Positions 9,934-12,665 of a DNA stretch of 39,568 bases are shown here, piece after piece (the stretch's first letter is position 1; each line of letters starts with the position of its first letter). The notes beneath the pieces are model-generated. The model searched no databases and was not told the DNA's origin. It worked only from the letters and a program-made list of their open reading frames with translations. Origin of the DNA: an uncultured Desulfosoma sp. GTDB lineage: Bacteria > Desulfobacterota > Syntrophobacteria > Syntrophobacterales > DSM-9756. The stretch spans positions 1-39,568 of the forward strand of contig CALGPN010000022.1 of the NCBI GenBank assembly GCA_937960435.1, given 5' to 3'. Both the position numbers and the translations under genes were made by a program.

Positions 9934-10383
9934 ATGCGGGCTGTCGTCCAAAGGGTTTCCAAAGCCTCCGTCGAAGTCAACGGGCTCACCGTCGGATCCA
10001 TCGGGCCCGGCCTTTTGGTCCTTGTGGGGGTGGGACAGGGGGATACGGAAGAAGACGCCCGCTATCTGGCGGAAAAGATCGTCCATCTTCGGATCTTTCC
10101 CGACGCCGACGACAAGTTGAATCGCTCCGTCCTGGACATCGGGGGCTCCGTTTTGGCCGTGTCCCAGTTCACCTTGTGGGGCGATTGCCGCAAAGGCCGG
10201 CGTCCTTCCTTTGTGGACGCGGCGCCCCCCGATCGGGCAAGAGTCCTCTACGAGGCTTTCCTCCACGCCCTGCGCGACCGTGGCGTCCCCGTGGCCACAG
10301 GCCTTTTCCAGGAAACTATGGCGGTGCACTTGACCAACGACGGTCCGGTCACAATCCTTTTGGACAGCCGCAAGAGCTTTTGA
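9934..10383 (+). CDS. dtd: D-aminoacyl-tRNA deacylase
   Basis: A 149-residue protein from the ATG at 9934 ([13 protein letters not shown]), preceded by the ribosome site GGAAGGA. It carries the two DTD signatures: [17 protein letters not shown] in the middle and [11 protein letters not shown] at the C-terminus; the latter supplies the Gly-cisPro motif that excludes L-amino acids. Function: hydrolyses D-aminoacyl-tRNAs in the cytoplasm, removing mischarged D-Tyr and similar and also Gly-tRNA(Ala). Normal length. First gene of a four-gene plus-strand run. Confidence 0.96.
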
Positions 10384-10418
10384 ACCAAACGCGCACCCTC
10401 TCATCTTCAGGAGAAACC

Positions 10419-10967
10419 ATGAACGAGAAAAATCAGCACACGAGCCAAGAGAACACGCCGAAGCCTGCGGTCACCGGGGAAGAAACGGGGATATTCGTGG
10501 ACCGTGAAGGAGACTGGTTTTACGGTGAGCGGCCCATTTTCCGAAAAGAAATTCTGGAAACCTTCTACGCCTCGCTGCGCCTTCTCGACGACGGCCGTTA
10601 TGTCTTGGAATGGCAAGGACGGCTCTACCCTATCGCCGTCGCCGACACTCCCTTTGTCATCACGCGGGTCGATCGTATCACCAACGGCGCCGAGGAAACC
10701 CATATCCTGCTGACCTTTAAGCACCTCGAGGGCACGGAGCCCCTGGACCCGTCCACCTTATGGGTCGGCCGAGACAACGTGCTCTACTGCCGCGTGAGGC
10801 ACGGCCGCTTCCCCGCCCGATTTTCGCGGCCGGCATACTACCAAGTGGCGCAATGGATCGAGCCGGTGGATAATGATCGGTTCGCCCTGCGCCTCGGCGA
10901 TCGACTCTACCCCATCGCCCAATCGACCGAACACGATGCCGCCTTTCGAAAAGACGGTGCAGCCTAG
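10419..10967 (+). CDS. DUF1285-family protein
   Basis: A 182-residue soluble protein starting MNEKNQHTSQEN at 10419, with ribosome site CAGGAG 8 nt upstream. The core features GIFVDREGDWFYGERPIFRK near the start, then RYVLEWQGRLYPIAVADTPF, and a second half with YPIAQSTEHD near the C-terminus. These match DUF1285, a two-lobed beta-rich family of unknown function. The GRLYPIA and DRLYPIA copies reflect an internal repeat of the fold. It sits 35 bp after dtd. Confidence 0.75.
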   Translation: MNEKNQHTSQENTPKPAVTGEETGIFVDREGDWFYGERPIFRKEILETFYASLRLLDDGRYVLEWQGRLYPIAVADTPFVITRVDRITNGAEETHILLTFKHLEGTEPLDPSTLWVGRDNVLYCRVRHGRFPARFSRPAYYQVAQWIEPVDNDRFALRLGDRLYPIAQSTEHDAAFRKDGAA

Positions 10968-10993: not shown

Positions 10994-11662
10994 ATGCGTC
11001 TTTTGACCGTTTCGGATGTGACGTCACCGGAACTCTTTCCGGTGGCCCACCCAGAGCTCTTCGAACCGCTGGATGCCGTTTTATCCTGCGGGGATGTTCC
11101 GCCTGAATACCTGACGTATCTCGGGCATTTCTTCCGCGTGCCCGTCTACTACGTCCGGGGCAATCACGACATTCGGTATTGCCGCCGGCCGCCTCAGGGC
11201 GCCGTAGACGTCCACGCCCGCCTGGTGAACTTCAAGGGCCTTCGCCTCCTAGGGTTCGAAGGATCCATGTGGTACAACGGCGGCCCGATGCAGTATACGG
11301 AAGCCGAGATGCGCCGGATCCTTTGGAAGACGCGCCCCATGATCTGGTGGCATGGCGGTGTCGATATGGTCATCGCTCACGCGCCGCCTCGGGGCTTCGG
11401 CGATGGGGACGATCCATGCCACCAAGGGTTCCGGTGCTTTGTCCGCTTAATTCGCACCCATAAACCCCGATGGTTCATCCACGGGCATGTGCATCGAGCG
11501 TTTCACGATCCGTCTCACAGGGTGATGCGGCTTGAAGAGACGAACATCCTGAATACTTTCGGCTGGCACATTGTGGATATCGACGATGCGACGATTCCTG
11601 GAAAAGATCGGCCTTTGGACGGCCCGGCCCCCAAAGGACCATGGCGCCGCTTGTTTTCATGA
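10994..11662 (+). CDS. Metallophosphoesterase
   Basis: A 222-residue calcineurin-like phosphoesterase. Metal-binding motifs visible are SD at residues 7-8, CGD near 33, GNHD near 56, IAHAP near 130 and GHVH near 170. The His of the usual DxH first motif is replaced (SDVTSPELF), as I recall from a subset of this family. The substrate is unknown. The start has only a weak ribosome site (GCGGATC). The 3' end overlaps the next gene by 77 bp or more in another frame. Confidence 0.85.
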   Translation: MRLLTVSDVTSPELFPVAHPELFEPLDAVLSCGDVPPEYLTYLGHFFRVPVYYVRGNHDIRYCRRPPQGAVDVHARLVNFKGLRLLGFEGSMWYNGGPMQYTEAEMRRILWKTRPMIWWHGGVDMVIAHAPPRGFGDGDDPCHQGFRCFVRLIRTHKPRWFIHGHVHRAFHDPSHRVMRLEETNILNTFGWHIVDIDDATIPGKDRPLDGPAPKGPWRRLFS

Positions 11663-12665
11663 GCTTCAAGAAAAAAACGGCGCTTTTGAATGCCGCGACC
11701 GCGGAGTACGCACCGTCCCTCTGGCCAAGATCGTGGGCAGTGTGGGACGATACCATGACTTCGATGAACGATTCCACCTGAGAAGCCAAGCCTCATCGGA
11801 ACGGTTCGAACAGATCAAGAACGCCATGCGTCGCGGGACGGTCTTCCCACCGGTCAGGCTGTGGCAGATTCGTGACGCGTATTACGTGGAGGATGGAAAC
11901 CACCGCGTGGCTGCGGCCAAGGCTCTGGAGCACGACGAGATCCTCGCCCATATTGTGGAATTTATCCCCTCGGGCGACAATCTCCAAGACGCCCTCTACC
12001 GGCAGAGAGCTCTTTTCCTGGACCAAACCGGCCTCCACGCGGACATCACCCTCACCGAACCCGGCCAATACGAACGGCTCTCCGCCCAAATCCGGCGCCA
12101 CCACCATCATCTCCAGGCAACGGAACGCGCCGATATTACTTTTCAGGAAGCGGCCAAGGACTGGTACCAGTATATTTATCGGCCGCTGACGACGCTCCTG
12201 TCCAGAGCGCGCCTCACCCAAGGGTTTCCCGGCCGCACCACGGCCGACCTTTACGCCTATGTGTCCGTAAGGTTGTGGGAAAAAGGCGAGAGACGTCACT
12301 ACGGGATCGGCCTTAACGAAATCCTGCCCGACGATATGGAGGCCTTTCGGGAAAAAATGAAAAACGCCGACGCACAGCATTACCCCGAAATGCAGCGGAC
12401 CATCACGGCCTTTGTCCTCATGAACGTTCAGGCGAAAAAGGAAGAAAAAATCGTGGAAAAGCTGTTTCGGCTGGATGAAGTCCACGAAGTGCACAGCGTC
12501 TTCGGCGATGTGGACCTCCTGGTCAAGGTGCAGCTCCGGCGAGATCTTCTCAGTTCCGACGCCGAAACCATCTCGCAGTTCGTCCACGAAAACATCCGCC
12601 AGATCGACGGCGTCATCGCCACCAAAACTTTGATTCCGGGCACATCCCGAATCAAAGAGAAGTAA
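11586..12665 (+). CDS. ParB-like domain protein fused to an Lrp/AsnC-type RAM domain
   Basis: About 359 residues from the ATG at 11586 (MRRFLEKIG); an ATG at 11571 is an alternative. Residues 45-130 read as a ParB/sulfiredoxin-like domain: VPLAKIVGSVGRYHDF, then VEDGNHRVAAAKAL, with the GNHR signature of ParB and DUF4032-type proteins. A middle helical part contains HHHH and DWYQYIYRPL. The last 85 or so residues (from AFVLMNVQAKKEE to TKTLIPGTSRI) match the Lrp/AsnC ligand-binding (RAM) domain. No helix-turn-helix of Lrp type is visible. Function unknown; a ligand-sensing regulator or ATPase-like switch is a guess. It overlaps the phosphoesterase gene. Confidence 0.8.
   Translation: MRRFLEKIGLWTARPPKDHGAACFHELQEKNGAFECRDRGVRTVPLAKIVGSVGRYHDFDERFHLRSQASSERFEQIKNAMRRGTVFPPVRLWQIRDAYYVEDGNHRVAAAKALEHDEILAHIVEFIPSGDNLQDALYRQRALFLDQTGLHADITLTEPGQYERLSAQIRRHHHHLQATERADITFQEAAKDWYQYIYRPLTTLLSRARLTQGFPGRTTADLYAYVSVRLWEKGERRHYGIGLNEILPDDMEAFREKMKNADAQHYPEMQRTITAFVLMNVQAKKEEKIVEKLFRLDEVHEVHSVFGDVDLLVKVQLRRDLLSSDAETISQFVHENIRQIDGVIATKTLIPGTSRIKEK

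Follow-up and report, generated by a model that had tools for sequence, protein, structure and literature searches.

What can a protein do that joins a ParB-like domain to the ligand-binding RAM domain of Lrp/AsnC regulators, without a recognised helix-turn-helix (HTH)? The question is raised by a gene of an uncultured Desulfosoma sp. (assembly GCA_937960435.1, contig CALGPN010000022.1), from which a stretch of 39,568 nucleotides, here called the window, is considered. The gene's first 77 bases overlap the end of an upstream gene for a metallophosphoesterase (MPE), and the features of the pair are as follows.

10994..11662, + strand: partner gene, calcineurin-like metallophosphoesterase (PF00149, E 9.3e-10, 39.7 bits against a cut-off of 21.5)
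11586..12665, + strand: ParB-like / DUF4032-like / RAM protein, 359 aa, whole gene (ATG at 11586, stop ending at 12665)
11688..11969, + strand: ParB/sulfiredoxin/SerK-fold domain, aa 35-128 (fold matches, profile matches, hhalign to the genome's own ParB)
11730..11774, + strand: conserved stretch IVGSVGRYxDFDxxF, aa 49-63 (I49, G51 and F63 in 68/68 aligned rows, D58 in 67/68)
11892..11906, + strand: DGNHR motif, aa 103-107, with GNHR at aa 104-107, containing the GxxR P motif (D103, G104, H106 and R107 in 68/68)
11982..12371, + strand: helical domain related to Pfam DUF4032, aa 133-262 (DUF4032 called on diverse members; helices in the model)
12393..12635, + strand: RAM domain of the Lrp/AsnC ligand-binding type, aa 270-350 (PF01037 and structure match)
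12540..12566, + strand: RDLLSSDAE loop of the RAM part, aa 319-327 (conserved among near relatives)

Domains of the 359-residue protein

A first-pass annotation, made from the sequence, had read the protein as a ParB/sulfiredoxin-like N-terminus, a helical middle and a C-terminal RAM domain, and profiles and a structural model (pLDDT 88.4 for the whole protein, 90.4 for the core) agree with that layout. Structure prediction, which the annotation had named as the check on the N-terminus, returned a ParB/sulfiredoxin/SerK fold, with the core model matching sulfiredoxin (Z 9.8), ParB (9.5), Noc (9.1), SerK (8.0) and SbnI (7.3). Fold and profile matches of this domain were confined to aa 36-139. 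Pfam does not call ParB_N on the 359-aa protein itself; among the 37 aligned near relatives, 5 gave the call at E<=1e-3, and one of these matches (L054) scored 24.6 bits, below the cut-off of 26.3. A profile built from 68 relatives gave weak matches (best E 0.0034) to ParB, Spo0J, sulfiredoxin, SerK and SbnI, all over one segment, and hhalign against the ParB_N domain of the same genome's own ParB gave a probability of 92 (E 6.8e-7). A recent duplication of that chromosomal, canonical ParB was rejected as the origin of the protein: it lies on another contig, and the core profile finds a single core copy in the genome.

Ten core residues were invariant in all 68 aligned rows (I49, G51, F63, D103, G104, H106, R107, F144, W193 and P200). 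This alignment (A4), used for folding and residue counts, comprises the retained relatives without L022, L030, L035, L050, L069, L085, L088, L089, L092-L094, L096, L100 and the plasmid rows. The stretch at aa 49-63 probably precedes the helix equivalent to the ParB C motif. The phosphate motif reads DGNHR or DGHHR throughout (DG[N/H]HR, 68/68), where the genome's canonical ParB has GERR. The fold and the GxxR phosphate motif together place the domain in the ParB/sulfiredoxin (Srx)/SerK fold superfamily, and on this basis we predict that it binds a nucleotide, in our view more likely ATP or ADP than CTP. In PMC12704722, where this motif is described, 11 of 28 purified ParB-fold proteins bound an NTP, and 17 therefore did not; specificity was predicted by neither sequence nor AlphaFold3, and as far as that paper goes no reliable sequence rule separates ATP from CTP binding.

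The helical middle is related to DUF4032 (PF13224), which was called neither on the 359-aa protein nor elsewhere in its genome but was called on 15 of 45 diverse family members at E<=1e-3, in one of them (L080) at 49.2 bits against a cut-off of 23.8. This DUF4032-related part is common to core proteins across phyla. Against solved structures its best match reached Z 3.1, a value too low to show anything either way.

The C-terminus is a RAM domain. PF01037 matches aa 278-350 above its cut-off (E 3.5e-10), solved stand-alone RAM proteins match at E 3.1e-9, and the model superposes on a stand-alone RAM structure with Z 13.3 (rmsd 1.5 over 79 aligned residues). Within the domain, the RDLLSSDAE loop exceeds that of the stand-alone RAM protein 2e1a by 6 residues, and among the aligned near relatives six of its nine residues (R319, D320, S324, D325, A326 and E327) show at least 90% conservation. 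In line with the first-pass annotation, no HTH is recognised: neither Pfam nor NCBIfam calls any HTH family on the protein, and the Lrp/AsnC chains among the matches listed align to the model only from residue 267 onward.

A shared core with exchangeable C-termini

The survey across Desulfobacterota that the annotation had proposed found matches at E<=1e-5 in 18 of 395 genomes of the phylum, 11 of them with the full-length architecture (the source included) and 7 with the RAM part only; in the 10 other full-length genomes the relatives are 46-79% identical over most of their length. Searches of named genomes confirmed relatives on 527 stretches, the best 80 of which were kept. Relatives in 10 other genomes and on 527 stretches lead us to reject a chance origin of the reading frame and its domain architecture. 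Among the matches listed, the NCBI phyla are Thermodesulfobacteriota, Myxococcota, Spirochaetota, Bacillota, Aerophobota, Bipolaricaulota, Fidelibacterota, Chloroflexota, Deinococcota, Atribacterota and Bacteroidota, an enumeration drawn from ranked rows among the best 80 of 527, many of them metagenome-assembled genomes (MAGs), and not a census. Partial relatives occur on four plasmid records (Tsukamurella, Cetobacterium, Rubrobacter). A phage origin was considered and rejected, with zero matches in 50,697 phage records.

What varies across these phyla is the C-terminus. At E<=1e-3, 45 diverse members carried RAM in 6 cases, universal-stress (Usp) domains in 4 and Fer4-type domains in 3; the Usp form, which includes tandem domains, occurs for example in Chloroflexota and Deinococcota, and the 4Fe-4S form in Bacillota. 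Judged from these domain calls, RAM is one of several putatively interchangeable sensor-type C-termini on a shared core. A quickly built tree of 85 cores has one branch (SH-aLRT 100) that separates all 36 RAM rows from the rest; with this result and a Pfam RAM match in 36 of 37 near-relative alignment members, chance domain calls were rejected. RAM acquisition looks like a single gain; Usp labels need two changes on the same tree and Fe-S labels likewise two. A C-terminus classed as "other/none" was assigned to 36 of the 85 rows. Among the best 80 of 527, the RAM form is found mainly in Desulfobacterota, plus two Spirochaetota MAGs, both of which nest inside the RAM clade and represent either transfer or binning error.

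The labels were assigned with two purpose-built profiles and a cysteine pattern, by which L057, with its short C-terminus, is the only one of 37 rows without a RAM label, and the Usp label of L089, where 18 residues are left, is doubtful. The tree omits L022, L035, L050 and L069 (near copies or truncated). In L022, L030 and L035 the RAM domain was judged from the tblastn span, and L030 was relabelled RAM in the tree because its RAM frame is interrupted yet the tblastn match covers query positions 1-358. An Ardenticatenaceae MAG encodes a tandem pair of Usp-fused core genes (L092:5668-9387) with no adjoining MPE, and a 562-aa Cetobacterium relative (L020:3848-5533) has a long C-terminal half without a Pfam match at E 0.01.

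A linked metallophosphoesterase

The first-pass reading of the parts stands, but it overlooked the MPE one gene upstream, along with the cross-phylum DUF4032-related helices and the alternative C-termini. The PF00149 match and the metal-binding motifs identify the partner as a calcineurin-like phosphoesterase: GD, GNH, H129 and the HGH of HGHxH are present in 19/19 sequences and the last His of GHxH in 17/19, so that the metal motifs are mostly intact, the usual first DxH motif being the exception, as its His is missing in this family.

An MPE lies upstream on the same strand at 38/38 RAM-type loci (L021-L056, L063 and L065) and at 58/80 core loci, both counted among the best 80 of 527. The first genome search found it at 11/11 loci, partly in the same genomes as the named loci, and pair-type MPE (E<=1e-30) and core (E<=1e-10) occupy an identical 11 of the 395 phylum genomes, spanning 8 genera and 6 families, with 6 of the 11 from one family. 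Even among the 22 loci without an upstream MPE, three of which (L074, L088 and L089) have fewer than 200 bases upstream and do not permit adjacency to be judged, 20 lie in genomes that carry a pair-type MPE (E 1.8e-36 or better). Counted over all 24 genomes searched (22 with unlinked loci and two linked controls), 22 carried it, and it was not found in those of L071 and L089. At L085 a converging MPE adjoins the core, and in three such genomes the MPE found elsewhere adjoins a second core copy (L111, L118 and L119). In an Aerophobetes genome the two are fused in a single 503-aa reading frame, with the MPE at aa 17-215 and the core at aa 238-470 (L103:1453-2961); a second core gene of that genome stands apart, with no MPE next to it (L066). 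Distances between MPEs and those between cores were correlated, with a Spearman coefficient of 0.85 over 58 loci (L001, L019, L020 and L085 included) and 0.58 over 35 loci inside the RAM clade. Common descent accounts for part of both the linkage and the correlation.

Among the best 80 of 527 loci, the MPE is the only gene family that keeps a fixed position from phylum to phylum, and we found no metabolic context shared across loci. ABC ATPases, a large generic family, occur at 14 loci of several phyla in varying positions. Genes for 2-hydroxyacid dehydrogenases occur at 5 loci, of which only L051 and L069, both contigs of a single MAG, have one next to the MPE; in L051 a D-2-hydroxyacid dehydrogenase (1343-2578) ends 4 bases before the MPE frame opens, the gene is present in L069 as well, and the L051 enzyme is nearest to phosphoglycerate dehydrogenase models, below their cut-offs. 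Two other neighbours are bound to a lineage, an amino-acid ABC transporter (up to 7 loci) and glutamate synthase (4 loci). At loci of the Desulfobacula/Desulfotignum type a transporter for polar amino acids, of the ABC class, precedes the pair; it is encoded on the opposite strand in L042, L046, L047, L050 and L054 but on the pair's own strand in L039. Glutamate synthase genes follow on the opposite strand in L046, L047, L049 and L054; these assignments come from Pfam on L054 and on one gene of L047. Such a context suits an amino acid as RAM ligand, in this one lineage.

Within the window, dtd (D-aminoacyl-tRNA deacylase) and a gene with a sub-threshold DUF1285 match lie upstream of the pair on the same strand (9937-10967), and the four genes possibly form one operon; dtd and the DUF1285-like gene are apparently not among the families recurring at 3 or more loci. 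Elsewhere, a myo-inositol-1-phosphate synthase gene precedes the pair on the same strand in Desulfoferrobacter suflitae (L029:3575-4954), a single case. A gene with two Pfam domains that we take to be Rex-like lies near the pair at four Bacillota loci (L059:3720-4418), in a lineage whose cores bear cysteine-containing C-termini (L058). Single cases also include glycogen phosphorylase near the Cetobacterium relative and sugar transport genes near the Tsukamurella relative.

Candidate mechanisms and known systems

We propose, with a probability of about 0.5, that the 359-aa protein is the nucleotide-binding and regulatory half of a two-protein module with the MPE, with nucleotide binding, catalysis and a RAM ligand as its postulated elements. 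From sequence and models, the supporting features are the predicted ParB/Srx fold with its GxxR motif, the DUF4032-related helices, the RAM domain, and an MPE whose gene is closely linked to the core and in one genome fused to it; the usual pairing with one phosphatase-like enzyme points to a two-protein regulatory module in many phyla. In such a module the ParB/Srx domain would bind a nucleotide, and the helical domain would close over it or contact the MPE. The RAM domain would build higher-order oligomers and sense a small metabolite, probably an amino acid or a related compound, and ligand binding would shift the nucleotide state and thereby set the balance with the MPE. The MPE would hydrolyse a phosphorylated product or signal, so that the two proteins would either oppose each other on one substrate or act as enzyme and regulator. 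Ligand sensing cannot be general across the core family, since 36 of 85 rows lack a recognised sensor domain. A ligand-gated nucleotide switch, as the first-pass annotation suggested, is thus a plausible description of the 359-aa protein, and the safer reading is a nucleotide-binding regulator tied to an MPE, to which RAM would add oligomerisation and a metabolite signal.

Two alternatives compete with this proposal. The protein might be a non-catalytic sensor, binding nucleotide and RAM ligand solely to regulate the MPE as its regulatory subunit. Linkage and fusion with the MPE and the interchangeable C-terminal domains fit such a role; however, the invariance of the acidic residue D103 next to the phosphate motif suggests a role beyond binding, and in some genomes the MPE is not adjacent to the core, and we consider this alternative possible but rather unlikely. 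Alternatively, the ParB/Srx domain might be a SerK-type kinase that uses ATP or ADP to phosphorylate a free small molecule (an amino acid or polyol, for instance), with the MPE as the matching phosphatase and RAM as allosteric site. That a kinase works against the MPE deserves consideration because DG[N/H]HR resembles the DGHHR of SerK and not the GERR of ParB; the phosphoesterase is linked and once fused, the NCBIfam SerK model matches one relative (L009) at E 4e-4, though with only 19.6 bits against a cut-off of 380, and SerK was itself initially annotated as ParB (PMC5120207). On the other hand, SerK E30, the residue mutated, by title, in structures 5x0e, 5x0g and 5x0k, has no clear conserved counterpart, as the profile match starts at SerK chain residue 31 and the conserved D58 and D60 lie nearby, and SerK fits the model no better than ParB or Srx. 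We regard the kinase as a tentative and rather unlikely option. Extended across phyla, it would yield a module that adds phosphate to one small molecule through a SerK-like ParB-fold kinase and removes it through an MPE dedicated to that task, the balance being set by a plug-in sensor (RAM for amino acids, tandem Usp, 4Fe-4S for redox), a speculative scheme that we hold to be distinctly unlikely as a whole.

A CTP-dependent ParB-like DNA clamp for DNA segregation or transcription regulation is highly improbable: the ParB-fold match and the fact that RAM domains mostly belong to DNA-binding regulators speak for it, but no HTH is called, ParB chains align to the model over the N domain only, DGNHR replaces GERR, no ParA-type gene occurs among the 7 flanking window genes scanned (nor is the MPE one), and the genome has a separate canonical ParB.

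The two-protein module draws on parts of known kinds, and as far as our searches reach, the domain combination and the MPE partnership are undescribed. In the literature searched we found nothing on a ParB-like / DUF4032-like / RAM architecture, no published function for it, in keeping with the first-pass statement that it was not recognised as characterised, and no mention of DUF4032; the publications that combine ParB with a RAM domain concern, by title, Notch and Sa-Lrp. ParB-fold nucleotide proteins outside DNA segregation have been surveyed only recently (PMC12704722). With one core in many phyla, one recurrent and once-fused enzyme partner and swappable sensor-type C-termini, the family offers a clean test case. 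If the kinase/phosphatase reading is true, many entries now annotated as 'ParB' or 'hypothetical' would turn out to be regulators of metabolism, with the RAM form coupling amino-acid sensing to a phosphate-based signal or metabolite.

Among known systems, SerK (TK0378), the ADP-dependent serine kinase of Thermococcus kodakarensis, shares the ParB/Srx fold, as does SbnI, and its DGHHR, with D at residue 69, aligns with DGNHR of the 359-aa protein; Asp69 is presumably catalytic. The match to SerK is limited to the N domain, SerK has no RAM, and we know of no MPE partner for it. SerK phosphorylates free serine with ADP (PMC5120207). The canonical ParB and Noc CTPase clamps share the N-terminal fold and the GxxR P motif but differ in their motif residues, as set out above, and here no HTH is called and the window holds no ParA-type neighbour. 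Sulfiredoxin shares the fold, and its GCHR, whose Cys we take to be the catalytic one, corresponds to GNHR or GHHR here. Lrp/AsnC regulators and stand-alone RAM proteins share the RAM domain, but the N-terminal HTH of Lrp/AsnC is not called in the 359-aa protein, where RAM, with its RDLLSSDAE loop, is instead joined to a nucleotide-type domain. DUF4032 proteins share the helical domain, with a profile cut-off that relatives reach and the 359-aa protein does not. The survey in PMC12704722 queried PF02195, which does not call the 359-aa protein, and its main text contains no AsnC, Lrp, RAM, DUF4032, universal stress, Usp, 4Fe-4S, ferredoxin or phosphoesterase. The ParB-CTPase-fold fusions described there are likewise orphan ParB folds joined to other domains, including archaeal fusions to CBS sensors.
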